DNA of 22,509 bases from a virus. Positions 1,653 to 21,674 of this stretch are shown piece by piece. The notes below the pieces were generated by a model. It saw only the letters and a list, made by a program, of their open reading frames with translations. It did no database searches and was not told the DNA's origin. A program made the translations under genes and the position numbers. The stretch spans positions 1-22,509 of the IMG/VR virus record IMGVR_UViG_3300049479_000272. The stretch is one strand, 5' to 3'. Within the stretch, counting starts at the first letter, position 1; every line of letters starts with the position of its first letter.

Positions 1653-2525
1653 TTAGTCGGTGACTTCAGTGAGGAGGAAGTCGAGGTTTTGCTGCAGGCG
1701 GATCCGGTCGGTGTCCTCCTTGAGGATGTAGCCAGAGGGCTCACCGATCAGTAGTTTGATTTCGCCAGTGGTAACAAAGTCGATGGCGCAGTTGATGGTT
1801 TGGTCTGTGGTGACTTCAATTCCAGTGCGTGTGACCATCGCCTGGAACTCGTAGTAGATGTCTTGAGCGCCAGGGTAGTTTTCGTCTTCGGTGAGCTGGA
1901 GGTAACAGTCAAACTCGCTGCCGATGTCGGTGCGGTTAATCAGTTGCAGCATCAGCAGCGGATTTTCCACTAGGCCGCTGTTGCTTGTGTTGAAGATGCA
2001 GTCGATCGAGCCAGAGCCGCTAATCAGACCAGCCGAATACATCCGCTTGAAGCGGTCGGACATGGTTGTGGTTTCCAGGGATTCGCGGTCGGTGTTGAAG
2101 CTAAAGCCTCGGACATCACCAAGGACGCGCTCCACGGAACCGTAAATCTGCACGGTGATTGGCAGGGCGCTGCCTGCGAACGATTCCAGGGGATACTCGA
2201 CGCTGCGGTCGTTGTTGATGGCAGCGCTGAAGGTTTCAAAAAGGCGGACACCACCGATGGCATTGACGTTGGCGTAGGCAACGACCTCTTTAAATGTTGC
2301 GCCGCCGCCGTCGGGCCAGGTTGAGCTGGGTAAAAAGTCGAGCCCTCGGGCGTCTGTGGTGGTGATGACCAGTTGATCTCCAGTAAGCAGGTTGTCGACG
2401 GAGCCCTCAAAACCGACGCGGTTAAGAGTTGTGTTGACGTCTGCAGGCAGAACTGAGCTGGTGAATGTGCCAGCTGCTTTACGGCGAAGTTTGACTTTGC
2501 CGTACTGCCCTAGGAAGTACGTCAT
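1653..2525 (-). CDS. Tail protein with tube-like core and inserted domain (paralogue of the tail tube protein)
   Basis: This 290-residue protein starts at an ATG whose ATGA overlaps the stop of the upstream gene by 4 nt, indicating translational coupling. The N-terminus (MTYFLGQYGKVKLRRKAAG) aligns by eye with the N-termini of the 164-aa protein upstream and the main tube protein. Residues 139-180 (RGFSFNTDRESLETTT, then SGSGSIDC) match the RDWSLETSLELLETTT and STGSATVLYY segment of the neighbour. About 110 residues are inserted between the N-terminal strand and this core, as in the main tube protein. No signal peptide or membrane segment is seen. It is likely a virion tail component, perhaps a distal tail or tube-associated protein, since it lies after the hub gene. 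The exact role is unknown; paralogy is inferred from manual alignment only. Confidence 0.72.
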   Translation of the reverse strand: MTYFLGQYGKVKLRRKAAGTFTSSVLPADVNTTLNRVGFEGSVDNLLTGDQLVITTTDARGLDFLPSSTWPDGGGATFKEVVAYANVNAIGGVRLFETFSAAINNDRSVEYPLESFAGSALPITVQIYGSVERVLGDVRGFSFNTDRESLETTTMSDRFKRMYSAGLISGSGSIDCIFNTSNSGLVENPLLMLQLINRTDIGSEFDCYLQLTEDENYPGAQDIYYEFQAMVTRTGIEVTTDQTINCAIDFVTTGEIKLLIGEPSGYILKEDTDRIRLQQNLDFLLTEVTD

Positions 2526-3016
2526 GCGTCAATCAGTTCGCGGAAGGGTCCGTCTACAGTGAACTGGATGGCCACTGAAGTCAATTCACCAGTCGAGACT
2601 TGCATCGAAGCGCTGGTGATGTAGGCGTTAAAGGCGATGTCGTCTTTGATGTCGCCGCTGGATCCGGGGGTTTGGCCGACGCGGAGAATGATGCCAACGC
2701 GGTCAGACTCGGTGACGCCTGCCGTGGTGGTTTTCATCAGCTTGTCCAGGAACTGATCGAACTGAACGCCGGGCTCGGTGCTGGTGGTGCCTTCGCGGCG
2801 GTAGTACAGAACGGTGGCGCTGCCGGTCGAGCTGACGGCACCAGGGGTATAGCTTTTGACGGCGGTGTCAACGGTGGTGGTTTCCAGCAGTTCCAGGCTG
2901 GTTTCAAGGGACCAATCGCGGAGCTTAAGGGCTTGTTCAGTGCTGGATGGCGTCACGGCACCTGAACCAGCAGTGGTGAGGTACAACGCACCAGTGCGTC
3001 CGGTGAAGAAGGCCAT
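2522..3016 (-). CDS. Minimal tail-tube-like protein (second tube paralogue)
   Basis: This 164-residue protein lies 26 bp after the hub gene. It begins MAFFTGRTGALYLTTAG, followed by LKLRDWSLETSLELLETTT (residues 31-49), SYTPGAVSSTGSATVLYYR (55-73) and a C-terminal stretch with AFNAYITSASMQVSTGELTS. The same elements occur in the same order in the main tube protein at 11279-12049 (SGTSGALYYKPAG, RDWSFEISRAEIDVTT, GTGTATVYM, SFDAVLTSASLNINPDDAQS). Here the roughly 95-residue insertion is absent, so this is the compact form of the fold. It is probably a tail tube or tube-terminal ring component. No Shine-Dalgarno sequence is obvious before the ATG. Function is inferred from paralogy and position. 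Confidence 0.75.
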   Translation of the reverse strand: MAFFTGRTGALYLTTAGSGAVTPSSTEQALKLRDWSLETSLELLETTTVDTAVKSYTPGAVSSTGSATVLYYRREGTTSTEPGVQFDQFLDKLMKTTTAGVTESDRVGIILRVGQTPGSSGDIKDDIAFNAYITSASMQVSTGELTSVAIQFTVDGPFRELIDA

Positions 3017-3042: not shown

Positions 3043-6000
3043 CTAGCGTTGGATAGTAAAGAGGTTGTCTGAGAAGTCTGCGATCAAGGAATTGTCGCTG
3101 GCATCGCAAGGAAAGATTGTGCCGCGAACCGTTACTTCGCCTTCTTCGTCCATCTGGACTTCGTTGACGCGAAAGACGCGGCGGGATTTGACCTTAGTGC
3201 CAAGGACGTACAGGTAGCCTTCGCGGGTGGCCAGGGCTGCCGCGATGTTGTCCGTGACAGTGGCCGTGGTCTGCACCACGCCGTTGCCGCTTTGGTAGAG
3301 AAGGAAGGAGTAGCTGCCGTTACGAACTGTGTTGTCAACTGGAGAGTTGAGTTTGCCGCCGGGGCCGACGACGCCGGCGGTGATGCCGTCCCAAGAGTTG
3401 TGGCCGATGTCGACGTAGATGTACGAGCCTGGTGAGATGGGGCTTGTGGTGGGGAAAGTCTTGAACTCGATGGCGGACCGGACGTAGCGTCTGGTGTTAC
3501 ACATCAGCTTGCCGAAAAGAATCGCTTGGGCTTCGTTGGTGACGAAAGCGGATGCGTCGAAGGACTGGAGGATGGCGTTGGCCGGATTGGTATCGCTGCG
3601 CTGGATAGTGATCGAGCGGTTTACGGAAAAGGTGCCGTTGCTGTCAAGCGAGCGGTAAATGACAGTGGCGATGATGTCTTGGACGTTCGAGTCGTAATCC
3701 AAGAACTCTTCTTTGTAGCTGTCTTCGAGGATGTTGCCTTGGTTGAAAAGGGCGGAGACTTGGATTTGGCGTTGGATGGCGCCAGTGAGTTCGTTGTATG
3801 GGACGCTCGGGATTAGGGTTTCGCGGCCGCCCATGCGGGCAAATTCCAGCAGGCTGAAAGGTGCGTTGGCTGCCCAGAAGCTGCGCCAGTTTTGGCGGTC
3901 AGCGATTAGGGCATCCATGTATAGGTTATTTGCATCGCAGAAACGTTTGGTGATTGCAAGCTGGCGAATGTCGATGCCGTTGATCTTGGCGTAGTTGCCA
4001 ATGCCATCTTGTGTGTCAAGAATTGTGTCCAGGAAAATATCCGGCGCGAAGCTGGTGGGGCCGTCTGGTTGAGCGGGGTAGTAGTTGTAGTTTGCGCTGC
4101 CCCAGGGATTGCCGTTTTCGTCGGGGAAGTAAGTACGGAGTCGACGCACTGGTTTGCCTCCAGTGATAAACGTGGAGAACGAGCGCATGTCCTGCAAACT
4201 CTTGCCGCTGAAGACGTTAAAACCAACAAGCGAGAGGTTGGAGTACAGCGCAGGCGTAAAATTTTGTATCAACTGCTCGCTGACAGCGGTGATGGCCAGT
4301 TCGGGGCCGCGCTCGAAGGATGTTTGTAGTTGGGTGTCGGCATCGAGGCTGAAAAGGTCCCACTCGTTGGTGCCGTTGGCGGATTCGTTGAGTGGAGGCA
4401 GCCCGCTGGTTTGACTGTCTTGGGTGAAGCCGGTGAAGTAGAGCGTGCGACCGGAACCTAGATTGAAAGTGGCTGCGTTGCCTGAGTTTTGCAGGTAGAA
4501 ATAACGTACAAGGCCGTTAGCTTGGCGCAAGAAACTGTGCTTGGCGATCTCAGCTAACGGATCAAGGATTGGTTCTAGGCGGAACTGCCAGTTTTGCGGT
4601 GTAAAGCCGCCGTTGAATTTGATGTAGATGAAGTTGTCTTGTTCGGCGGCGCGGCGCACGACAAAAATGCCAGGTGCTGTGGTGTAGGCACCACCGGCGA
4701 TGCGGTAGTGCAGCAAGAACATGGACGTTCGCTGCTGGATGCCGTTGTCGCTGGCGGCGTAACCTGCACGACGCTGGCTGCCGTAGCTTTGCTGTCTACC
4801 CGAGATACGCCGGTATACCTGCGCTTTCAAGGCGATGTCGACAATGTTGCACTGGGAGACCGTGGTGTACGAGGCCTCTTCGACGCGGGTTATTGCTTTT
4901 AGGTAAAACAGATCGTCGCTGCCAACCTGTCTGGCATTTTCAAGTTCGATAAAGCGCTGTATGTCTGTGCGTTCAGCAGGTGTAATTGCACGAAAAAATA
5001 CCAGGCGGTAATCGGTGTAGTAGCGTTCTTCGCCGTAGTCATAATCGTAGTAGTTAGCTGTATAAGATTCGATACCGTATATGTTTCCTGAGTTAAGAAG
5101 AGCTTGGGCGTCTAAAACAACAAACCTTTCGTTTTCCGGTATCGATCCTCCGTATTGCAGATAATCGTATTGATAGTTACCGTCGCTGTCGTAAGCGGTG
5201 GCCATTGTGTTGCGTTGATCAAGTGCCAGTAAGTTATCAACTGTCCGCTTGCATCTTTGATAGTCTGGGCTATTTATTACATCTTGAGCCGTGTCGATAA
5301 CTTCGTCGTAGGTATAGTTAAGCGATGGAGCACGGCCGGCTTCAATACAGACCAGATCCACGACAAAATCACCTTCGTCGGTGGTCGTACCAGTGATGCG
5401 ATTGGTGCGGTAGCGAGCGGAGCCGAGCTTGAAGATGCCGGCGTCGTCGAAAACGCTGGCTAATGTGCGGCGCGTATCCATTGCGGTACGCACCAGGTCA
5501 TCCTCAAACGTTGCGCCATCGGGGGAATTTGCCGTGGAGGCAAAACGGATTTGCAACGTTTGGTTGAGCGGGATTACGGCAAGGGCGCCGGTGTTCCAGG
5601 CTTGGGAAGAGGCGGTTATTTGAATATCGGTGCTGCCTTTGTCGCCAGCTTCGTTACGGAGGTAGGTCTTGACGTTGATGGGGACGGGGCTGTAACCGCC
5701 GAAGATGTTCGAGCTGCTGGGGGAATAGGCCTGGCTGAAGCCGTCTACGCGGGTGTTTTCGATGCCGGGCTGTAAACGATAAGGATTCTCATTTGCACTT
5801 CCGTACTTGGTGGGGTCGGAGTCGCTGGAGAAGCTGGCTTCGTTGAACCAGTGGAGAGGGCCTGTGAGGCCCATGTAAATCCACTTGTTCTGGGCGATAA
5901 GGTCGGTGATGACTGTTTGACCGAAGGCGGATTTGTTGATGTCGACGCGGGTAATTTGGCCGCCGGTCAGCAGCATCAACATTTGCAGGAATTGGTTGCT

Positions 6001-6420
6001 ACCGTAGCTGCGGACGGCGCTCCAGAGGAGGGTGCCAGCGACACGGACGCCGCCGTTGGGGTTGCCGCTGTCGGAGCGGTCGGTATAGACCAGCGGCACG
6101 GTGTCGCCGTATTTGCCGAGTTCTTGGACGCTGTTGAAGCCGAACCGGGGCGAAAAGCGTTGTTCACGGGTCTGGCGTTCGCCGCCGGCCGTAATCGACG
6201 GGATCTCAGGGCGCGGTGTCAGCAGTACAGAGACGACTTGAAAAATGATGCCGATGACGGCAAGAACGATAGAAACAGGGTCGTTGCGGATGTCAAAAAT
6301 TGTGCCTTCTTTTGCGTCGGTATAGGTTTGCTGGATCGCCAGGAAGTCGAGATATTCTTCTTTGGTGATGCCAAGGGTGGCGATGAGGTCGTGCTCGTAG
6401 GGCAGCAGCTTGCGGGTCAT
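3043..6420 (-). CDS. Tail tip hub / host-specificity protein (lambda gpJ-like)
   Basis: The 1125-residue length is close to that of lambda gpJ, and the gene comes directly after an NlpC/P60-like gene with an ATGA overlap, the K-to-J arrangement. This family forms the baseplate hub that closes the tube and contacts the receptor or fibers. Near the N-terminus, residues 50-67 (SIVLAVIGIIFQVVSVLL) form a strongly hydrophobic helix, reminiscent of gpI-type tail assembly proteins; no separate gpI gene lies between K and J. The rest is a long beta-rich, Tyr/Asn-rich protein without recognisable enzymatic motifs. A local AT-rich patch covers about 4960-5290. Assignment rests on size, position and general character rather than on a decisive motif. 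Confidence 0.82.
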   Translation of the reverse strand: MTRKLLPYEHDLIATLGITKEEYLDFLAIQQTYTDAKEGTIFDIRNDPVSIVLAVIGIIFQVVSVLLTPRPEIPSITAGGERQTREQRFSPRFGFNSVQELGKYGDTVPLVYTDRSDSGNPNGGVRVAGTLLWSAVRSYGSNQFLQMLMLLTGGQITRVDINKSAFGQTVITDLIAQNKWIYMGLTGPLHWFNEASFSSDSDPTKYGSANENPYRLQPGIENTRVDGFSQAYSPSSSNIFGGYSPVPINVKTYLRNEAGDKGSTDIQITASSQAWNTGALAVIPLNQTLQIRFASTANSPDGATFEDDLVRTAMDTRRTLASVFDDAGIFKLGSARYRTNRITGTTTDEGDFVVDLVCIEAGRAPSLNYTYDEVIDTAQDVINSPDYQRCKRTVDNLLALDQRNTMATAYDSDGNYQYDYLQYGGSIPENERFVVLDAQALLNSGNIYGIESYTANYYDYDYGEERYYTDYRLVFFRAITPAERTDIQRFIELENARQVGSDDLFYLKAITRVEEASYTTVSQCNIVDIALKAQVYRRISGRQQSYGSQRRAGYAASDNGIQQRTSMFLLHYRIAGGAYTTAPGIFVVRRAAEQDNFIYIKFNGGFTPQNWQFRLEPILDPLAEIAKHSFLRQANGLVRYFYLQNSGNAATFNLGSGRTLYFTGFTQDSQTSGLPPLNESANGTNEWDLFSLDADTQLQTSFERGPELAITAVSEQLIQNFTPALYSNLSLVGFNVFSGKSLQDMRSFSTFITGGKPVRRLRTYFPDENGNPWGSANYNYYPAQPDGPTSFAPDIFLDTILDTQDGIGNYAKINGIDIRQLAITKRFCDANNLYMDALIADRQNWRSFWAANAPFSLLEFARMGGRETLIPSVPYNELTGAIQRQIQVSALFNQGNILEDSYKEEFLDYDSNVQDIIATVIYRSLDSNGTFSVNRSITIQRSDTNPANAILQSFDASAFVTNEAQAILFGKLMCNTRRYVRSAIEFKTFPTTSPISPGSYIYVDIGHNSWDGITAGVVGPGGKLNSPVDNTVRNGSYSFLLYQSGNGVVQTTATVTDNIAAALATREGYLYVLGTKVKSRRVFRVNEVQMDEEGEVTVRGTIFPCDASDNSLIADFSDNLFTIQR

Positions 6421-6806
6421 CGCTCCATCCAGAAGAGTTGGCCGGTGCCTTCTGGCAGCTTGGCTCTTACTACATTATGAGACGGACCAATGAAAACAGT
6501 GCTGCCGTCTTCCATGACGGTGCCAAGGGCTGCACCAACGTCGGAGGGCAGTAAGGCGACGGCGGCGGGGCGGGGAGTGGTCAAGCGGCTGCCGTTTTGC
6601 AGGAGCCAGCGGGCCATGCGGACTCGCGGGAAGGTATCGTCGTCAAACTCGTTGTAGACCCAGGCAAAGGCTGGTGCGTAGTCCGCAAAGCCAAAGCGGC
6701 GGTGGATTTCGCAGGCAAGTTGGAAGCAGTCCGTTTGGTCGCTGCCGTCACCGGGGCGATGGTCCCACCCGTAGGTCAGCCCGATGAGGTCGTTGACGTT
6801 GATCAC
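6417..6806 (-). CDS. NlpC/P60-type tail assembly peptidase (lambda gpK-like)
   Basis: This 129-residue protein resembles a short NlpC/P60 domain. The segment YGWDHRPGDGSDQTDCFQLA (residues 12-31) corresponds to the family's Y-x-W-G and D-C-x-x-L signature, with C27 as candidate nucleophile. H110 in FIGPSHNVVR is the candidate catalytic histidine. The third polar residue is not clear to me. In lambda-like tails this protein helps assemble the tip and may cut peptidoglycan during DNA entry. The start overlaps the upstream L-like gene by ATGA and the stop overlaps the hub start by ATGA. The usual DCSG is replaced by DCFQ, so activity is probable but not certain. Confidence 0.78.
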   Translation of the reverse strand: MINVNDLIGLTYGWDHRPGDGSDQTDCFQLACEIHRRFGFADYAPAFAWVYNEFDDDTFPRVRMARWLLQNGSRLTTPRPAAVALLPSDVGAALGTVMEDGSTVFIGPSHNVVRAKLPEGTGQLFWMER

Positions 6807-7267
6807 TGGAGGACCAGTTGCGAGTCCAGTGGCAGGGGGCCTACGAGTTCGCGGGTAAGGATGCGGTTAGGGAAGTTGCTGGTGACGCTGTCGATTGCAG
6901 AGCGGAAGCGCAGCTCCAGCGTGGTGTCGCTGATGCTGCTGCCGACGCCGACGTAATACTCGACTTGGATGTTGTTGGTGTAGCTGCCGTCAGCGGTTAG
7001 CCAGACAGTGGCGAGTTCCAGCGTGCTGAGGCGGTTGCCATCACCTGCGTAGAGCATGGCGACTGAGATGTCGAGGTTGGGGAAGAGGATCTGGAGGATG
7101 TTGTTTTCACCGTTGAGGCTGGCGATGGCGCCCTCGGCGCGGAATGGGGCGAAGCTGTAGGTGCGGCCGGCGTAGACCTTGTTCTGGTTGGCGAAGTAGT
7201 TCTGGAAGAAGTGGCGGTTGCCGGTGCTGGTGGTCAGATCGAAGAACTGACAGATGCGGATGTCCAT
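6803..7267 (-). CDS. Minor tail protein, lambda gpL-like
   Basis: This 154-residue protein starts at an ATG that shares its A with the preceding TGA (TGATG) and ends with an ATGA overlap into the K-like gene. It reads MDIRICQFFDLTT, then SFAPFRAEGAIASLNGENN, and ends with FPNRILTRELVGPLPLDSQ. The C-terminal TRELVGPLP pattern and the M-L-K order fit the gpL / DUF1833-type tail-tip proteins, which form a ring between tube and hub. Some gpL proteins bind an iron-sulfur cluster through cysteines, but only one cysteine (C6) is visible here, so that property is unlikely. Assignment is by synteny and weak motif resemblance. Confidence 0.7.
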   Translation of the reverse strand: MDIRICQFFDLTTSTGNRHFFQNYFANQNKVYAGRTYSFAPFRAEGAIASLNGENNILQILFPNLDISVAMLYAGDGNRLSTLELATVWLTADGSYTNNIQVEYYVGVGSSISDTTLELRFRSAIDSVTSNFPNRILTRELVGPLPLDSQLVLQ

Positions 7268-7671
7268 CAGTCGTCAAGCAGCGGGTTGCGAATTTCGCCA
7301 GCGAGGTTGATGCGGACGTTATTGATGCCGGGGCGGATGGTTTGCACTTCAGGCGGGCCGGCGTATTCCCAGCGGAGGCCGTCAATGCTTGCATTGGCGC
7401 GGGCGGCCAAGGTGCTGGACATGCCAGCAGTGACGTTGCTGCTGAGGGTGAAGCGGCGGTTGGCGGCGGTTTGGCTGCGGTAGTGGTCTAGCAGGGTGAC
7501 GACGGTGGCGTCGGAGATGCTGTCGAACTCCAGGTCGAGCTGAGCGCCGTACGGTGAATTGCCGTAGGTGCGCTTGACGACTGCACCACTAAGGGCGCGG
7601 TATGCCTTTTGCGGGTACACGCCAGGGCGGAAGCTGCGGCCGGTTGGGGTGATCGAGGGAAACGCGGCCAT
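7267..7671 (-). CDS. Minor tail protein, lambda gpM-like
   Basis: This 134-residue protein sits directly after the tape measure with a TGATG overlap and ends with another TGATG overlap into the L-like gene. It starts MAAFPSITPTGRSFRPGVYP and contains YGAQLDLEFDSISDATV followed by LLDHYRSQTAANRRF, then a C-terminal RWEYAGPPEVQTI. This fits the compact gpM / phage minor tail family, where a beta-sandwich core sits at the tape-measure end of the tip complex. There is no membrane segment and no cysteine. The call relies on length, the conserved tape measure-M-L-K-J order and general pattern. Confidence 0.7.
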   Translation of the reverse strand: MAAFPSITPTGRSFRPGVYPQKAYRALSGAVVKRTYGNSPYGAQLDLEFDSISDATVVTLLDHYRSQTAANRRFTLSSNVTAGMSSTLAARANASIDGLRWEYAGPPEVQTIRPGINNVRINLAGEIRNPLLDD

Positions 7672-10613
7672 CAGCGGATACCGATGCGGCTACGGGTTTG
7701 GGGGGATTGCTTGATGCGATCCAGTGTCATGGTCATGCCGCGATTGGCGCCGTCGCGGGTGGCTTGGCGGCGGGTTTCGGCCATGGCCGCCTCCAGTTGG
7801 TCTCTACTGACGTACTCTACGCCGCCGATGCTGGTTGTCTGGAAGCTCATGTTGAGCACCGGTGAGCCACTGCTGCCTGGCGCGGCGCCCATTGCATCGC
7901 GCAGGCCGGAGTTGGAAACAACGCTGCCGTTACGCCCTGGCACGAACAGCTCGGGGCCGTGCTCGCCAACGACGTAAGGAGATCCAGCAGAGACGGGACC
8001 GCCATTGGCGCGGAAGGCACCGCTGTAGTCGGGGATTCCGGGCAACGCCGGGATTCCAGCGTCGACGGAGCCGCCGAAACCTGCGGCGTTACTGGAGAAA
8101 CCGCCGCCTCCACCGCCCGCTCCGGTGAACACACCTAAGGCTTTAAGGATCGTGCCCAGGATTACCATTGTGGTCTGCTTAGCGATAATTTGGGCAGCCA
8201 TGTTGATGAAGTTTTCGCCGATGCTTCTCATCATGTTGGCGAGAGCTTCTTGTGCGCTGGATGAGCCGTTGATGATTTCCTGGAACGCTTGACCGAAGGC
8301 GTTGCCCATGTTGTCTGCGGCAAGCACAGCGACATTTTCCAGATTTGTCAGTTCGGCCAGTTCGGCTTTGAGTTCTTCCATGCGTTTTTGGCCCGGTCCT
8401 TTGGTGCCAGTACCAGCAGCTGCGACGGCGCGGTTTCTGTAGGCCGTAATCTCCTCTTCGGTCAGGAGGATTCCTTGTTTACGTAGGTCGATGATGTCGA
8501 ACTCGATCTGACGGAGTTTTTTGGCGGCTTCGTCTTTAATGCCAGCTAATTCAATCTCTCGGTCAAATTTTGTAAGCAAATCGGTGTACTTTTCTGTTCT
8601 TTGCGCTTCAATTTCTTCTACTTTTAGTAACGTGTTTAGGCGCGAGTTTTCGATAGCTTGCAAACCTTCTTGTACGATTGCCTGCTGAGCATTTATGTTT
8701 TGCTCGTTTGCCAGTGCTTGTGCGTATCTGTACTGGATGTCGAGTATCTCTTTTTCGCCGTTCAATCTGGCCACAAGGCTGGCATCTTTCACCAGCTCGG
8801 CGTTAGCGATTTTTTCCTGAAGTTGGCCTTGAATCCGAAGCATTTCGGTTTCGGCCATGCGGTCACGGATGACTTCCGCAACTCGTGCAGCTTCACGGGC
8901 TGCGTCGTCTGCCGCCTTATTCTTTCTAGTCTTAGAGCCGCCGGCTGCTTCTGTGAATTGAGTAGGAGCTTTAAATGTAGATACAGTAGGTAACGCCCCA
9001 GCGGCTGTAGTTTTAAATTCCGGTTGTTGCTGGAGCAGCTTTACAAATTTATCGGTGTTAAAACCGATTCCTAACATACCCGGACCGGCTTGCTTCTGTA
9101 GCTGCCTAGTTCTTGACTCTCCGAGTAGTTCAACAACACCTTGAGTACCGAAAGGTAATTTACCTTGTTGTACTGCTTTTACAGCTGCAGCTTTTGGCCC
9201 CATAGCTGCTCTATCTACAAGAGCACCTATTTGAGCAAAAGCATTTGCAGCGATGTTTACAATATCGGCTAAACGGCGAACAAGCCAGTCAAATACTGGT
9301 GTTAGTTTCGTTACGATAGTCGCTGCAATGTTACCTATAGCCGTCGCTAGAGCATCCCAGGAATCTTTAAGTACATCTACAGCTGTCTTATTTTTATTTA
9401 CAGCACCTGTGCCTTTGTTGCCTAAATCAACCATAGTATTTATTAAGTCTTGGACAGAAATTTTCCCGTCCTTTGCCATCTGGAGAATGGTGTCTCGGTT
9501 AGTTTTATACTTAGTTGCTAGAGCACCTTGTATATCTATACCTTGGCTAGACAGCTGATTAAGTGTTGCTTGTGTTACTTTACCACTTTCTAAAACACTT
9601 GTTAGTGCGTTAGTTACCTTTGTAATGTTCCCTCCGAATTTTTCTGTAAGTACGCTGACAAGTTGAATCGCTTTCGCTTGATCTTCAATTTCTAAACCGA
9701 CGCCGCGTATGTTTTGAACAGCTTCTGTAAATTTTTCTGCGTCGGCACCGGCTAATTTAAAGGCTGCTTGTAGTTGTAGTGTCTGCTGAGCAGTAAATCC
9801 TATATCTCCGGCTAGTTCTTTAATTTTGTTTCCCTGTTCAGCTATACCACCAAGAAGAGTGCCAAGAAGCGAACCAGCAAATCCACCACCTGGACCGAGA
9901 AGTCCGCCTGCGATACCGCCTATTGCGCCTCCCGCTGCAGCTCCAGGGCCTTGACCGAACAGTAAAGGGAAAGAACCGCCGATAATTCCTTCACTGACAG
10001 CTCCGCGAATTCTTTTACCTCGGGCTTGTTGAGCAGCAACTCTAGCCGTTTCACGTTCACGAACAGATGCAGCAATACGTTCTGCTTCATTTACGGCTTG
10101 TGCTGCGCGTGCTTCTTGTTGGCGCTGTTTAATCCGTCCGCTTTGAATAGTATTTAGTCGACGGTAATATTCAAAATCACGCTCAGCTTGAGTTTGTAAA
10201 CCTTTTGCAGTTCGCGCAAGATCATTCTGAGCAATCGAAAGTTTGCTTGCTTGCTTTTCTGCTTCGGCAAGAGCATTAGCATAAAGTTTTACAGATGCAG
10301 ATTGCTTTTCATAGCCGCCTGCAGCTACTTTTACGTTTTCTAGAACGGTTCGGAATACGTTTGCTTGTTGGACTGCACCAGCGAAAGTATTGGAGATTCG
10401 TTTATTACCGTTCTGTACGCTGCGGGCAAAATCGTTGATCGGTTTGATAGCTAGGCGAATCGAGTCGCCCAGCTTTCCGCCGCCAGGTGCAAGTAAATTT
10501 AAGGGTTTTAAATTCTGGCTTAAGTTATTTAAACGTTCGACGGAAGCTGTTACTGCGTTCAGGCGCGACGCACCAGCAACAGTGATGTTGATGTTGGCGT
10601 TGTAGTTGGCCAC
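7671..10613 (-). CDS. Tape measure protein
   Basis: This is a 980-residue protein starting with GTG (ANYNANINITVAG). Residues about 100-205 are a long charged, coiled-coil-like helix. About 209-258 is a Gly-rich hydrophobic stretch (GGAIGGIAGGLLG). Residues about 270-400 match the usual tape-measure N-terminal domain (LSSQGIDIQGALATKY, then DLINTMVDLG), followed by further hydrophobic and long helical segments. Near the C-terminus, ANGGPVSAGSPYVVGEHGPE and LFVPGRNG form the hallmark tape-measure motif. It sets tail length and is ejected with the DNA. It follows the G/GT chaperone pair, which should coat it. Roughly 8.5-10.6 kb is clearly poorer in GC than the flanking genes (24/60 at 9601-9660). 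The Shine-Dalgarno before the GTG is weak. Confidence 0.95.
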   Translation of the reverse strand: MANYNANINITVAGASRLNAVTASVERLNNLSQNLKPLNLLAPGGGKLGDSIRLAIKPINDFARSVQNGNKRISNTFAGAVQQANVFRTVLENVKVAAGGYEKQSASVKLYANALAEAEKQASKLSIAQNDLARTAKGLQTQAERDFEYYRRLNTIQSGRIKQRQQEARAAQAVNEAERIAASVRERETARVAAQQARGKRIRGAVSEGIIGGSFPLLFGQGPGAAAGGAIGGIAGGLLGPGGGFAGSLLGTLLGGIAEQGNKIKELAGDIGFTAQQTLQLQAAFKLAGADAEKFTEAVQNIRGVGLEIEDQAKAIQLVSVLTEKFGGNITKVTNALTSVLESGKVTQATLNQLSSQGIDIQGALATKYKTNRDTILQMAKDGKISVQDLINTMVDLGNKGTGAVNKNKTAVDVLKDSWDALATAIGNIAATIVTKLTPVFDWLVRRLADIVNIAANAFAQIGALVDRAAMGPKAAAVKAVQQGKLPFGTQGVVELLGESRTRQLQKQAGPGMLGIGFNTDKFVKLLQQQPEFKTTAAGALPTVSTFKAPTQFTEAAGGSKTRKNKAADDAAREAARVAEVIRDRMAETEMLRIQGQLQEKIANAELVKDASLVARLNGEKEILDIQYRYAQALANEQNINAQQAIVQEGLQAIENSRLNTLLKVEEIEAQRTEKYTDLLTKFDREIELAGIKDEAAKKLRQIEFDIIDLRKQGILLTEEEITAYRNRAVAAAGTGTKGPGQKRMEELKAELAELTNLENVAVLAADNMGNAFGQAFQEIINGSSSAQEALANMMRSIGENFINMAAQIIAKQTTMVILGTILKALGVFTGAGGGGGGFSSNAAGFGGSVDAGIPALPGIPDYSGAFRANGGPVSAGSPYVVGEHGPELFVPGRNGSVVSNSGLRDAMGAAPGSSGSPVLNMSFQTTSIGGVEYVSRDQLEAAMAETRRQATRDGANRGMTMTLDRIKQSPQTRSRIGIR

Positions 10614-10675: not shown

Positions 10676-11191
10676 GTTTGGCTTTGTCTAGCTCTTTTTG
10701 TTGGTCCTCGTTGAGGATCTGGAAGTAGGCGCTCCAGCCGATCAGCTCTTCGGCGGTCATTGAGGCGCGGACCTCGCGCAGGGATTTGCCTAGCTCTTTG
10801 GCGACTCCGAACTGGAGCATGAGCCAGTTGTCCTTGCGGAGTTCGGCGCTCAGCTCTTTGGGTCGAGGGGCTCGGCGTCGTCGGTGATGATGGCGAGCAT
10901 CAGGGCTTGGAGGTCCTTGTCCTTGACTTCGTTCTTAAGGACGTCGATCTCGCCAGCGTTGAAAAGTTTGGCGCCGGATTCGTCGAGGGCCTTGGTGATC
11001 AGCAGTTGGAGAGCGAAGGCGTTGGCGTCGTCGGACTTGGCCTGTTTCTGAGCGCGTTCGCGCTCGGCCATGGTCAGGGGAGTGACCCACAGCTCGAAAG
11101 TGCTGCCGTCCGAGAGGTCGACGGTCTTTTTGACGGGCTCCAGGTTGGCGGCCTTGCGGAGGCGGTCAATGGCGCGAACTGGAACTGGCAT
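10665..11191 (-). CDS. Tail assembly chaperone GT fusion made by -1 frameshift
   Basis: The G frame ends at 10850, but the overlapping -1 frame stays open to the TAA at 10667-10665 and encodes a convincing domain: ELSAELRKDNWLMLQFGVAK, then ELGKSLREVRASMTAEELIG and WSAYFQILNEDQQKEL. The frames meet at CCCAAAG (minus strand 10862-10856). In the G frame it is read C CCA AAG, an X-XXY-YYZ slippery heptamer equivalent in form to lambda GGGAAAG. Slipping one base back gives a 175-residue product: 112 G residues plus 63 T residues. In lambda and relatives, G and GT bind the tape measure and recruit tube subunits. No start codon suits independent T translation, and the position before the tape measure fits. 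Frameshift efficiency cannot be read from sequence. Confidence 0.88.
10850..11191 (-). CDS. Tail assembly chaperone G (unshifted product)
   Basis: This 113-residue protein starts at ATG 11191 and ends just two codons past the slippery site (EPLDPKS then TGA). The sequence RKAANLEPVKKTVDLSDGST, WVTPLTMAERERAQKQAKSD and the helical, acidic remainder resemble gpG-like chaperones, which bind tape measure protein during tail assembly and are absent from the finished virion. It lies between the tail tube gene and the tape measure, the standard position. A strong terminator at 11235-11258 separates it from the tube gene, so its expression depends on readthrough or on a promoter I do not see. No Shine-Dalgarno is apparent. 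Confidence 0.85.
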   Translation of the reverse strand: MPVPVRAIDRLRKAANLEPVKKTVDLSDGSTFELWVTPLTMAERERAQKQAKSDDANAFALQLLITKALDESGAKLFNAGEIDVLKNEVKDKDLQALMLAIITDDAEPLDPKS

Positions 11192-11278: not shown

Positions 11279-12049
11279 TCAGCTCTTGCTGAAGTCGAAA
11301 GTGGGGGTGCCAGCGGGGCGGAACTTGACGGTGACGGACTGGGCGTCGTCGGGGTTGATGTTCAGGCTGGCGGAGGTCAGCACGGCGTCGAAGGAGATCG
11401 AGCGGCTGAGTGTTTCGCTCAGGGTGCCGCCGCTGAAGACGCGGTCGGTGTAGAGCTTGAAGGCGGCGCCGTCTTGTTGGCGCTGCAGGACATCCTGGAT
11501 CATCCGGTTGGAGAGGGCGGCGTCCTCGTTGGTCATGTAGACCGTGGCGGTGCCGGTGCCATCGCCGAAGCCGCTGATGTAAGTGCGGAAAGGGACGTAT
11601 TGGCCGGGAGTCTGACCGATGGTGGTGACGTCGATCTCGGCGCGGCTGATCTCGAAGCTCCAGTCGCGGACTTGACCGACAACAGCGAAGTCGGCGTAGG
11701 CGACTTGGAACTCGTTGGGGGCAACAGCGGTGCCGTCATCCGTGATGTCGACAGCAGCGCCGCCGGCGGTGGCAGAAACCTGCAGAGCACCGGTGGCAGC
11801 GGTGTACGAGATCACGTAGTAGGTGGTGGCAGCACTCAGGCCGGCGGGAAGAGTGCCGCTGCCGGCTCCACCGGTCTGGCTGTTGATGACGCTGAACACC
11901 ACAGGATCGCCGACCTTGAAGTTCAGGTAGGTCTGGACCGTAATGGTGTCGGTAGCGGTGGTCACGTTGGATTCACCGAACGATCCGGTGGTGCCAGCGG
12001 GCTTGTAGTAGAGGGCGCCGGACGTGCCGGACAGAACGGTTGTGGCCAT
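11279..12049 (-). CDS. Major tail tube protein
   Basis: This 256-residue protein lies between the tail terminator gene and the G/GT chaperones, where the tube gene is expected. Residues 1-19 (MATTVLSGTSGALYYKPAG) and 128-256 (RDWSFEISRAEIDVTT, GTGTATVYM, SFDAVLTSASLNINPDDAQS) carry the tube-like core shared with the 164-aa and 290-aa proteins downstream. Residues about 30-110 form an inserted domain (VGDPVVFSVI, GTLPAGLSAATTYYVISYTA, VDITDDGT) of a kind common in phage tail proteins, probably exposed on the outside of the tube. The gene is followed by a strong terminator. A small hairpin lies in the 69-bp leader. Role is assigned from synteny and paralogue comparison. Confidence 0.87.
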   Translation of the reverse strand: MATTVLSGTSGALYYKPAGTTGSFGESNVTTATDTITVQTYLNFKVGDPVVFSVINSQTGGAGSGTLPAGLSAATTYYVISYTAATGALQVSATAGGAAVDITDDGTAVAPNEFQVAYADFAVVGQVRDWSFEISRAEIDVTTIGQTPGQYVPFRTYISGFGDGTGTATVYMTNEDAALSNRMIQDVLQRQQDGAAFKLYTDRVFSGGTLSETLSRSISFDAVLTSASLNINPDDAQSVTVKFRPAGTPTFDFSKS

Positions 12050-12118: not shown

Positions 12119-12550
12119 TTAAGAGAGGACTGTTGCTACCCAGTTGGTGTCGATGCGGCCCATGAAGTGTGGGGCGTCTTCGGTTGTTGAGAAGATTGGC
12201 CCGTTAATTTCGCCGAGGCGGAAGAATGTTCCAGTAGAAGGTTTGGCAGTGGCGTTGATTGTTTCTAGGGTGTTGACGGCTGTCGTCAACAGGGTTTGGT
12301 TGCGGGAAGGGCCGCGTCCTTTTTCTGTGAAGATGCGAATGATGAGGGCACCACGAGCGTGGTCGACGCTGGTGGTAAGGGTTGGCTCGTTTGTGATGCC
12401 GAAGGTGATGTTGACGCGGACGTATTCCGTGGTTGTGTTGGGTGGGACTGCCGTGATGTTGTCGAAGTAGACGGGCACTGGGGGCACCAGTGCGCTGAAG
12501 GCGGTCAGCAGAGGGTTTTCGACTGCGGCGCGGATGGCTTGGTAGTTCAT
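12119..12550 (-). CDS. Tail terminator protein (lambda gpU-like / DUF4128-like)
   Basis: This 143-residue protein starts MNYQAIRAAVENPLLTAFSA, then VPPVPVYFDNITAVPP. It continues with EYVRVNITFGITNEPT, DHARGALIIRIFTEKGRGPS and a C-terminal HFMGRIDTNWVATV. An N-terminal helix, a short target-site strand and an acidic or charged ring segment fit the small tail-terminator / tail-completion proteins that cap the tube below the neck. It overlaps the preceding neck gene by ATGA and lies 69 bp before the tube gene, the usual order. No catalytic motif is expected or seen. The identification rests on size, place and overall pattern. Confidence 0.72.
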   Translation of the reverse strand: MNYQAIRAAVENPLLTAFSALVPPVPVYFDNITAVPPNTTTEYVRVNITFGITNEPTLTTSVDHARGALIIRIFTEKGRGPSRNQTLLTTAVNTLETINATAKPSTGTFFRLGEINGPIFSTTEDAPHFMGRIDTNWVATVLS

Positions 12551-13979: not shown

Positions 13980-14174
13980 TCAGTACAGTCTTTGTCTGAG
14001 TCTAGCCTCGGCTGTAAGTTTTCTTGATTTCTTGGGTTGACTGAGGACGGAGGCGTGGTAAATGGTCGCTCCAGACATTTCGAGATCGGCCTGTGCTTCG
14101 GTGTGTTGGCCGTATGGGACGTCGATTACGCGACGGAGGTTATCCTGTAGTACGAAGAGACGGACTTTTTTCAT
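13980..14174 (-). CDS. Small unknown protein between capsid and adaptor genes
   Basis: I choose ATG 14174, giving 64 residues: MKKVRLFVLQDNLRRVIDVP, then a segment with GQHTEAQADLEMSGATIYHAS and a basic end (KKSRKLTAEARLRQRLY). The frame is open farther upstream, but the extra 66 residues are Ser/Thr-rich and lie wholly antisense to the plus-strand gene starting at 14173, so I regard them as noncoding. The chosen start codon and that of the plus-strand gene overlap in the palindrome CATG. The stop is two bases before the adaptor gene. No family recognised; perhaps a small head-joining or decoration protein. No clear Shine-Dalgarno precedes it. Confidence 0.6.
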   Translation of the reverse strand: MKKVRLFVLQDNLRRVIDVPYGQHTEAQADLEMSGATIYHASVLSQPKKSRKLTAEARLRQRLY

Positions 14175-14436
14175 GGCTACGCGCAGAAGTGCTTCTGAAG
14201 GCAGCGTAAACGCAGCCGAAAAGGTTGTGGATGCGACTAAGCCTCGGGTTTGGGCTGATGTTGCTAAGCAGGTGCAGGCAATGCGAGAGGACGGTGCCAA
14301 CGTCCCCGAGATCTGCGAGAAGTTGGAAGTGTCGTATGTGTTGGTGAACCAGTTGGTGCTCCAGTCGTACAAGATGGCGATTGATTCGGCGCAGGTGTTT
14401 GAGCGGCAGGAGAAGATGCGGTTGGGGATTGAGTGA
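14173..14436 (+). CDS. Small helix-rich, possibly DNA-binding protein on the opposite strand
   Basis: This is the only plus-strand ORF that reads as a real protein. From ATG 14173 it encodes 87 residues: a basic start (MATRRSASEGSVNAAEKV), then VWADVAKQVQAMREDGANVP and EICEKLEVSYVLVNQLVLQS, ending QVFERQEKMRLGIE. The middle fits a helix-turn-helix of the kind A-x-x-x-x-E-G-x-x-x-x-x-I-x-x-x-L-x-[VI]-S. In contrast, all three minus-strand translations of 14180-14436 look nonsensical. An upstream extension to 14062 is possible but is antisense to the 64-aa gene. The stop lies 10 bp before the capsid terminator hairpin, which could also stop this transcript, though with a poorer T-run. It could be a late regulator or a displaced small terminase; neither is proven. 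Confidence 0.65.
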   Translation: MATRRSASEGSVNAAEKVVDATKPRVWADVAKQVQAMREDGANVPEICEKLEVSYVLVNQLVLQSYKMAIDSAQVFERQEKMRLGIE

Positions 14437-16384: not shown

Positions 16385-17182
16385 TTAAAAAGTTCCGTCG
16401 TCGAACTCTGCGTTCGAGAAGTCTCCGACGGGTAGTGTGAAATTGAGGATGGCGGCGGTGCTTGTGCCGCTGTTGGTGACGACGGCACTGGCTCCAGGGG
16501 AGCCTGTGGTGACGGCGCCGATGGTGATGGTGGCGGCGTTGCCTTGGGGGCCTTGCGGGCCGGTTTCTCCAGTGGGGCCGGCGGGGCCTGTTTCGCCCTG
16601 AGGGCCTGCGGGACCCGTCTCGCCTTGAAGACCTTGCTCACCCTGGGGGCCAGTAGGACCGGTCGCTCCAGTCGGTCCTGCGGGGCCTTGGGGGCCTGTT
16701 TCGCCGGCAGGGCCTGTGGGACCGGCTGGGCCGGTGGCGCCTGTTGCGCCGGTAGGGCCTGCGGGGCCGGTGGCTCCAGTGGGGCCGGTGTTGCCGCGAG
16801 GGATGGTGAAATTGAAGATTGCGGCGGTAGAGGTGCCGACGTTGGTGACGGAGGCGGATGTGCCGGGTTCGCCGGTGGTTGTTGTACCAGCGGAGATGGT
16901 TGCTGTGGTGCCACTGCCGCCGGTGCCGGGGAGAGAGCCACCGACAGTTAGGCCGCTGATTTGACTGCGGGTGGCTATTTCGATGCCGGTGCCCCAGGTG
17001 GAGGCTTTGGGGCCGTAGAGGGTGAGGTCGGTGGTGTCGACGTACCAGTCGCCGGGGGTGCCGAGGGTTGAGGGTGGGGGGCCGTCGCCGGAGTGGATGG
17101 TGTTGAGGGCGTCGACGCGCTGGGTCAGGCGGACCAGGGCTGTGACTTGGGCGAGCGTGAGTTGCTCGGTTTTGGTGGCCAT
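16385..17182 (-). CDS. Collagen-like virion protein between portal and scaffold
   Basis: This 265-residue protein overlaps the portal stop by TGATG. Residues 1-30 are a helical start ([20 protein letters not shown]), a trimerisation candidate. Residues 44-63 hold [20 protein letters not shown], a module common in phage fibers. Residues 130-213 are 28 uninterrupted Gly-X-Y triplets rich in GPT, GPA, GET and GPQ. The triplet block is flanked by two copies of one module: [20 protein letters not shown] with [13 protein letters not shown] before it, and [20 protein letters not shown] with [13 protein letters not shown] after it. It most likely forms a trimeric collagen-like rod on the virion. Most such proteins are tail fibers; the location in the head module suggests a head fiber or capsid-attached decoration, but this is inferred. 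Confidence 0.85.
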
Positions 17183-19896: not shown

Positions 19897-21141
19897 CTAC
19901 CACACACGATAATTGGTTTTGCCGAGGGATTCCGGTTTGGCGAGGTTAAAAGTCTGGAGGCAGAGGTAGCCGAGGGCGTCGAAAGCGTGGTCCACGCCTA
20001 GGTTTTTGTTGGGGAGGCCGGTGTTGGGGGCGTAGGTCAGGGTGCGAAGGGACTTGATGAGTTCCTTGCACTTGGGGTGGATGAAGAGGCGGCGGGTTCC
20101 AGTGGCGTCGAGGAGGGCGGTGTTGACGCAGGTGATTTTGTCGCGGATTTTCCAGGGGGAGCGGGGGCTGGAGACGGTGAAGCCTGATTTGCGGAGGATG
20201 TTGTGGTCGGTGGCGCCAACGCCGGAGGTTTTGCGGGCACCGCCGGTGGGGTCGGGGCAGGCGATGATGCGGCGCTCCACGCCGAAGCGGGTTTGGATTT
20301 CTTCGCAGAGGTCCCAGGTGGTGGCGCCGCCGGTCATGATGATTTCGTCGAAGACCCAGAGGACGTCGCCTTTTTTGACGGCGCAGACGGCGGACATGGG
20401 GTCGATGTTGAAGTCGACGCCGATGAGGAGGGGGAGGACCGGGAGGTCTTGGACCAGCTTGTCGATGTTGTCGTCGGAGAAGGAGATGGCGACGAGGCCG
20501 GAGAGGTTTTCGAAGCTGGCCTCGAATTCTTGGCGGAAGGTGCGGGCGTCGAGTTGGGCGCGGGCGGCTTCGATTTCGGCGGCGGGGACGTTGTCGCCTT
20601 GGATGGTGGTGAATTGCCAGCGCTGCCAGTCAGTGTCGCCTTCGTCGGCGTAGCACCAGAGGTCGTAGAACCAGCTGGCGGTGCCGTCGGGGGTGGAGAT
20701 GAAGAGAGCCCAGCCCTGTTTGTCGGCGAGGGCGGGGCGGATGACCTCGAACCAGACCTCGGAGTCCATGAAGGCGGCTTCGTCGAGCACCACGCCGGCC
20801 AGGCTGCGGCCTCGCAGGGCCATGGCGTTTTCGGTGCCCTTCAGTTCGATGGTGGAGCCGTTTACGAGTTCGATTTTTAGATCGGTTTCGTTTTTACTTT
20901 TTACCCATGCTTTTGGGACAAGTTTTTTTAACAATTTCCATACAATATCTTTTGCCATGCGATAACTCGGCGCACAGTAAAAGTAGGTTTCGCCGGGGCG
21001 TTCGATTGCTCCACGGAGGAGTTCGACGCAGGAGAGGTAGCTTTTGCCGAAGCGGCGGCCTGCTACGAGGACGCGGAAGCGTTTGCGGCTGCTGAATACT
21101 TCGCCTTGGGCGTAGCGGAGGCTGACGCTGTTGTCACTCAT
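19897..21141 (-). CDS. terL: Terminase large subunit
   Basis: This 414-residue ATPase-nuclease packages DNA into the procapsid. I choose ATG 21141, overlapping the HNH stop as ATGA; the longer open frame upstream only shadows the HNH gene. Walker A is GRRFGKS at residues 28-34, Walker B GVVLDE at 116-121 with E121 as catalytic acid, and the coupling motif ISTP at 148-151. The RNase H-like nuclease begins with GVDFN (D243), then CPDPTG (D297) and DHAFDALGY (D384/D388), consistent with metal-binding acids. Length is slightly short compared with the usual 420-600 residues but all motifs are present. An AT-rich patch at about 20870-20960 (19/60 G+C at 20881-20940) encodes residues about 61-91. 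No small subunit gene is adjacent. Confidence 0.95.
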   Translation of the reverse strand: MSDNSVSLRYAQGEVFSSRKRFRVLVAGRRFGKSYLSCVELLRGAIERPGETYFYCAPSYRMAKDIVWKLLKKLVPKAWVKSKNETDLKIELVNGSTIELKGTENAMALRGRSLAGVVLDEAAFMDSEVWFEVIRPALADKQGWALFISTPDGTASWFYDLWCYADEGDTDWQRWQFTTIQGDNVPAAEIEAARAQLDARTFRQEFEASFENLSGLVAISFSDDNIDKLVQDLPVLPLLIGVDFNIDPMSAVCAVKKGDVLWVFDEIIMTGGATTWDLCEEIQTRFGVERRIIACPDPTGGARKTSGVGATDHNILRKSGFTVSSPRSPWKIRDKITCVNTALLDATGTRRLFIHPKCKELIKSLRTLTYAPNTGLPNKNLGVDHAFDALGYLCLQTFNLAKPESLGKTNYRVW

Positions 21142-21674
21142 AGCCAAGACCAGTTGCGGCCGGAGCTGATGGCACTGATTGTTACGGTTTTGACGCCATA
21201 GTCTAGTGCAATAGAAGCGTGGGCCTCTTTTTGCTCCAGGCGGCGTTTGATTTGGCGGACTTGGTCTTCGGTGAGGCGGGAATTGCCGACTCGGCTGCCG
21301 CGGACCCAAGTGCCGTGGGTGATTTTGTCTGCCATGTTTTCGGCGGATGTGCCCCAGCGAAGGTTGGCGAGGTGGTTGTTGCGGATGTTTCCGTCGAGAT
21401 GGCGGCACTCCTGGCCGGGTTGTTTGGGGCCGCAGAATGTCTCCAGCACCAGGCGGTGGATGGCGTAGGTGTGGTGGTCGTTATTGGCGTCACAGAGTGT
21501 GACGATTTCGTAGCCGCGGCTGTTCAGGGCCGGTTTGAGCAATCTGGCTGGGTAATGGCGTTGGATCCGGCGACCGTCACGGCGGGTGTAGGTCACGATG
21601 CGTTCCAAGGAGCTGACTTGACCGAACTCGCTGATTTCGTAGGAGTTTTCGTAGCCGCGAATCGGTTTCCACAT
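21138..21674 (-). CDS. HNH homing-type endonuclease with NUMOD4 domain
   Basis: This 178-residue protein has three parts. Residues 1-55 form a NUMOD4-like domain (WKPIRGYENSYEISEFGQVS). Residues about 70-110 form the HNH_3 nuclease (AIHRLVLETFCG, then ECRHLDGNIRNNHLANLRWG) with H73/R74, H92, D94, N100 and H101 as candidate active residues. Residues 134-178 form a helix-turn-helix-like DNA-binding end (LTEDQVRQIKRRLEQKEAHA). The GAAGGA-type Shine-Dalgarno lies 8 nt from the ATG. Free-standing HNH genes next to terminases can be mobile homing endonucleases, or can act with the terminase at cos sites. This one is translationally coupled to terL, which favours a packaging role, though its NUMOD4 architecture is typical of homing enzymes. 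Confidence 0.9.
   Translation of the reverse strand: MWKPIRGYENSYEISEFGQVSSLERIVTYTRRDGRRIQRHYPARLLKPALNSRGYEIVTLCDANNDHHTYAIHRLVLETFCGPKQPGQECRHLDGNIRNNHLANLRWGTSAENMADKITHGTWVRGSRVGNSRLTEDQVRQIKRRLEQKEAHASIALDYGVKTVTISAISSGRNWSWL

Follow-up and report, generated by a model that had tools for sequence, protein, structure and literature searches.

Proteins with the tube fold are found repeatedly where phage tails, T6SS, and contractile injection systems end. In contractile tails, T4 gp48 and gp54 and the tube paralogues of AFP and PVC serve as tube initiators. Tube initiators also occur in Mu and in other myophages (PMC11915804). In lambda, gpM has the same topology as gpV and makes the ring below the tube, while the last ring consists of three gpL HDI and three J HDII domains (PMC10721106). 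The distal tail protein of JBD30, gp49, is a trimer in which each subunit harbors two domains resembling the major tail tube protein (MTP) (PMC11445458). Full-text literature searches, outside of which most subscription papers lie, returned no description of tube paralogues encoded after J in siphophages.

The window analyzed here is a stretch of viral DNA of 22,509 nucleotides (IMG/VR record IMGVR_UViG_3300049479_000272), in which two genes, referred to as X1 and X2, lie between the tail-tip hub and a tail fibre. In the 5′ to 3′ direction, the minus strand encodes an HNH gene, the large terminase, the portal, a collagen-like gene, the scaffold, the major capsid protein, and connector genes, followed by the tail terminator, MTP, chaperone, tape measure, gpM-like, gpL-like, NlpC-position gene, hub, X1, X2, and the fibre. 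Unless marked otherwise, all window coordinates given below are on the minus strand. The collagen-like gene (16385–17182) encodes a GXT repeat protein (PF01391, 2e-14), and its place between portal and scaffold is unusual for a fibre-like protein. The NUMOD4/HNH endonuclease gene (21138–21674), likely a homing endonuclease, is located just upstream of the large terminase and overlaps its long frame. On the opposite strand within the head gene run, an open frame at 14062–14436 (+) has a weak match to phrog_9129 (0.003) and may be a small antisense-oriented gene.

The tail genes follow a lambda-like plan. The tail terminator (12119–12550) matches phrog_179 (2.6e-11) and Pfam Phage_tail_terminator_5 (1.5e-6), and the tail assembly chaperone (10850–11191) matches phrog_344 (9e-5) and phrog_20784 (2.8e-34). 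Between them lies the gene of the MTP (11279–12049, 256 aa), which is 76% identical to the KBS-S-2A protein in the same gene position. The tape measure protein (7671–10613) is assigned from its place between the chaperone and gpM, where related loci carry a homologous large gene. The gpM-like distal tail protein (7267–7671) matches the minor tail protein family phrog_15525 (2e-16). The gpL-like tail-tip protein (6803–7267) is identified by phrog_25799 (1e-6) and by position, and its homologue in the related locus L387 has a weak Phage_tail_L match (E 0.045). In the position of lambda gpK, which in complete loci is between the gpL-like gene and the hub, 6417–6806 encodes a putative NlpC/P60-like peptidase, recognized by eye; PHROG and Pfam searches gave no family match for it.

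The lambda J-like hub or central fibre protein (3043–6420) is assigned on the basis of phrog_27845 (1.8e-9) and gene order, and it is 24% identical to a tail protein of Mic1. The Mic1 genes 3′ of the hub were considered as equivalents of X1 and X2, yet they are unmatched by profile and appear gpM-like by eye. The N-terminus of the hub harbors a hydrophobic stretch, DPVSIVLAVIGIIFQVVSVLLTPRP, similar to one in L387, which may be a lambda gpI-like plug fused to J. The tail fibre (3–1616; phrog_892, 2.6e-39) has its N-terminus at 1616, directly 3′ of X2, and runs off the window. The sequence-only reading of this DNA had described two tube-fold genes after J as foreign to the standard lambda layout, and the arrangement indeed departs from it, with X1 and X2 present on top of the standard gpM, gpL, NlpC, and J-like genes.

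X1 (2522–3016, 164 aa), the first gene 3′ of the hub, encodes a compact tail-tube-fold protein. X2 (1653–2525, 290 aa) encodes a tail-tube-fold protein homologous to X1 and the MTP, and the two reading frames share four bases (ATGA). These two frames and that of the MTP are found on the minus strand where the sequence-only reading had placed them, and they share the ordered motifs that it listed, namely GTSGAL/GRTGAL/GQYGKV, PAG/TAG/AAG, RDWSF/RDWSL/RGFSF, IDVTT/LETTT/LETTT, and GTGTA/STGSA/GSGSI. X1 is compact as described; relative to it, the core begins ~100 residues later in the MTP and at least 110 later in X2. The insertions, of ~100 residues in the MTP and ~110 residues behind the first strand in X2, occupy one shared place, behind the N-terminal strand and ahead of R-[DG]-[WF]-S. 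Their position is common, but comparison of the two insertions gave no significant homology (hhalign E 0.27). Conserved columns of X2 also include a C-terminal tail past the tube fold. An open reading frame located after the fibre in another locus (L065:9724–10308) has part of the MTP insertion domain in common (51% over a segment), suggesting that in these phages the domain may move from one protein to another.

X1 and X2 are homologous to the MTP, and the three are tube-fold paralogues. BLASTP E values are 6e-8 for X1–X2, 3e-7 for X1–MTP, and 2e-4 for X2–MTP, and X1, used as query against the entire record, returns exactly three places, the X1, X2, and MTP genes. Pairwise identities are just 23–29%, as might be expected if convergence or composition rather than paralogy had produced the resemblance. 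Such an origin is nevertheless barely conceivable, because none of 500 shuffles reached the real score (z = 11.1 for X1–X2, 9.2 for X1–MTP, and 7.9 for X2–MTP), the fold is common, and profile–profile comparison upholds the kinship first read from the motifs (E 2.8e-9 for X1–X2, 2.5e-12 for X1–MTP, and 1.9e-9 over 229 columns for X2–MTP). Moreover, a profile built from X1 and proteins of the Synechococcus phage S-H1 type, containing neither the window-type MTP nor X2, recovers both in whole viral records, the MTP at ~1e-14 to 1e-17 and X2 at ~1e-7 to 1e-15.

The kinship of X1 and X2 extends to recognized major tail proteins of the tail tube protein (TTP) superfamily. X1 matches phrog_10528 (major tail protein; E 4e-4), and X1 of L387 matches phrog_10528 (8.8e-9) and phrog_1407 (8e-8). 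In the Pfam search, none of the window X1, X2, and MTP gives a match or passes the curated cut-off, and the best score of any homologue, to Phage_TTP_11 (0.0013), is below it; this cut-off is a filing criterion outside the fold definition, and the window MTP fails it as well.

The structural models are in agreement with a TTP beta-sandwich. The AF2 model of X1, of middling confidence (pLDDT 68, pTM 0.62), has 34 matches in the PDB at E<=0.001, and 34 of 34 are tail tubes, tips, necks, or baseplates, including lambda gpV, 80alpha, SPP1, R4C, GTA, and monocin. The top matches are tail tubes. A search of the PDB by sequence yielded nothing convincing. For X2, the model was built on the homologue from locus L079 (59% identical) instead of the window protein and has an uncertain core (pLDDT 68); its PDB matches are weak, with none below E 0.001, although many are tail-tube or related folds. 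Because of these weak matches, the X2 fold rests mainly on the homology of its C-terminal half.

The pair was followed through ~270 fetched IMG/VR loci, a partly redundant sample. Throughout, X1 is directly followed by X2, mostly with a 1- or 4-base overlap, and the pair lies 3′ of the hub, or of hub and gpM, and 5′ of the fibre. The first 80 related loci show hub, X1, X2, and fibre in this order wherever their flanks are present. Among 385 loci, one main layout is terminator, MTP, chaperone, tape measure, gpM, gpL, hub, X1, X2, and divergent relatives have a second one, tape measure, gpL, hub, gpM, X1, X2; the gpM homologue has thereby left its place ahead of gpL and come to lie between hub and X1, as seen in L388, L389, L322, and many others. 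The overlap measures 4 bases or 1 base in 193 of 198 labelled pairs, and the compact gene comes first in all. When a distant X2 was used for scanning, X1 was directly upstream in 76 of 78 further loci, and in the remaining two the X2 match starts at or within 102 bases of the contig end. As loci from different scans partly overlap, these counts do not equal numbers of independent viruses. An apparent case of three copies (L103) looks like a single X1 broken into fragments of 69 and 71 aa.

Both genes are under strong purifying selection. In 89 loci, X1 and X2 have median identities to the window of 0.80 and 0.81, compared with 0.52 for the hub, 0.61 for gpM, and 0.60 for gpL, and in 88 of the 89 both are better conserved than the hub. 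Median dN/dS values are 0.097 for X1 and 0.078 for X2 (NG86, 89 loci), approximate figures because synonymous sites are near saturation. Small overlapping genes adjoining structural genes could also encode non-virion assembly factors, such as tip nucleators, that use the tube fold transiently. This is very improbable, given the strong conservation of the pair and the fact that the solved tube-fold proteins returned by the fold search are components of virions or particles.

A tree of 85 core domains, including 37 of X1 and 30 of X2, places X1, X2, the first S-H1-type copy, the second S-H1-type copy, and the window-type MTP in separate clades, with long deep branches that leave the order among clades unsure. 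With X1 and X2 each forming one clade apart from the MTP, the duplications are old, as had been proposed from the motifs. Since S-H1-type tandem copies exist besides X1 and X2, several duplications have taken place in this tube family. In the S-H1-type loci (L132–L211), the tandem tube genes stand at the MTP place, each in its own clade, and are possibly the genes of a two-protein tube shaft; multi-protein tubes may therefore exist in the wider group. In L232, a tube gene directly 3′ of the tape measure (5887–6291) is nearest to the first S-H1-type copy (47% identity), and a window-type MTP is present too.

True homologues of the MTP might themselves be minor tube variants, mixed or stacked in the shaft as alternative MTPs rather than tip parts, and the two tandem tube proteins at the S-H1-type MTP locus lend this some appeal. 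It is nonetheless improbable for X1 and X2. The S-H1-type copies form separate clades grouped with the P-HS2-type MTP and thus represent a different duplication. The position of a shaft-forming MTP gene, from terminator to chaperone and tape measure, is occupied by 11279–12049, whereas X1 and X2 lie 3′ of the hub, keep a constant place with gpM and the fibre, and persist beside an MTP of the Phage_tube_2 family. The latter is seen in L387, L388, and L389, which retain gpL, hub, gpM, X1, and X2 (and, in L387 and L388, the fibre start), although their terminator differs and their MTP position is occupied by a tube protein of 310 aa, identified in L387 and L388 as Phage_tube_2 (PF18906, 2e-27 and 4e-28). 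Because hub, gpM, X1, X2, and fibre are retained beside an unrelated MTP, the pair is part of the tip module.

A tip location is thus supported by gene order and by co-inheritance with tip genes. X1 and X2 are structural tube paralogues that have become fixed in the tail-tip module. Since they are inherited with the tip and not with the tube, they are probably specialized tip rings or fibre collars. On the basis of gene order, fold, and conservation, this appears to be the likeliest reading. The proteins would assemble distally as one or more tube-like rings or a collar adjoining the trimeric hub and the gpM ring, and they would connect the fibres, products of the gene that follows, with the tube or hub; the X2 insertion and C-terminal tail would point outward or contact the partner. 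The presence of lambda-like gpM, gpL, and J, which already make the tip rings, counts against extra rings; X1 and X2 would be tube-fold units that the tip has in addition to these three.

The constant pairing of the genes points to either a stack of two rings or a single mixed ring (3+3). In a more elaborate and rather doubtful version, X1 and X2 would alternate, three of each, in a single ring equivalent to a split two-domain distal tail protein, which would adapt the six-fold symmetry of the tube or gpM ring to the three-fold symmetry of the hub while carrying the fibres, and the whole tip module could dock onto other tube families.

A role as fibre adaptors or collar, with the tube fold off the DNA channel as in the T5 fibre collar, overlaps with the tip ring or collar and is a possible, though less favored, explanation. 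In most loci, a fibre with the same type of N-terminus directly follows X2, and the conserved C-terminal tail of X2 extends past the tube fold, as an adaptor might require. X1, however, is a bare tube fold with nothing additional to hold a fibre, and KBS-S-2A has a related fibre N-terminus without X1 or X2, so this kind of fibre does not require the pair. The latter observation also weakens the case for X1/X2 being tied exclusively to fibre N-termini of the SETKK type.

The window capsid protein is nearest to those of AG-345-A17, S-2L, S-H1, and KBS-S-2A, which, together with the MTP identity to KBS-S-2A, makes a cyanobacterial host likely. The viruses carrying the pair form a large uncultured group, probably infecting cyanobacteria. 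Among isolates (INPHARED), the window X1 has no close relatives, and the window X2 finds only S-H1 at 2e-3 and matches at E 2–5; a divergent X1 query matches isolate MTPs, and a divergent X2 query matches nothing, so that isolate searches found no cultured relative with the pair. Kinship of X2 to the giant structural protein found in T4-like cyanophages (tblastn E 2 for P-RSM4) was dropped, as profiles were not significant. Prophage searches in bacterial genomes gave just six short, probably spurious Gilliamella matches. X1 and X2 are unnamed candidate virion proteins, encoded in many siphophage contigs from the environment that are related to cyanophages. As an obligate, widespread pair of tube paralogues that remains with the tip even where the tube is replaced by one of another family, they offer a natural test of tip–tube matching.

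Several described systems resemble the pair in part. Lambda-type major tail proteins (gpV; Phage_TTP_11, PHROG 10528 and 1407) have the same fold as X1 and X2, and X1 is also their kin in sequence; X1 and X2 differ in being paired genes 3′ of the hub, with the MTP encoded separately. Lambda gpM and distal tail proteins likewise form a tube-fold tip ring, and many relatives have a gpM homologue directly before X1, but X1 and X2 match MTP families, and they do not replace gpM because its homologue (7267–7671, phrog_15525) is present in addition. In S-H1, as here, two tube proteins of the same family occur in one genome; its copies are in tandem at the MTP locus, and the long S-H1-type records searched contain no pair 3′ of the hub and no tube proteins besides the two. 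Contractile tube initiators (Mu gp43) share the tube fold and the distal-end specialization proposed for X1 and X2, whereas the window encodes a lambda-like siphophage tail. JBD30 gp49 offers two linked tube-fold units at a 6-fold/3-fold junction (PMC11445458), whereas X1 and X2 are two separate genes.
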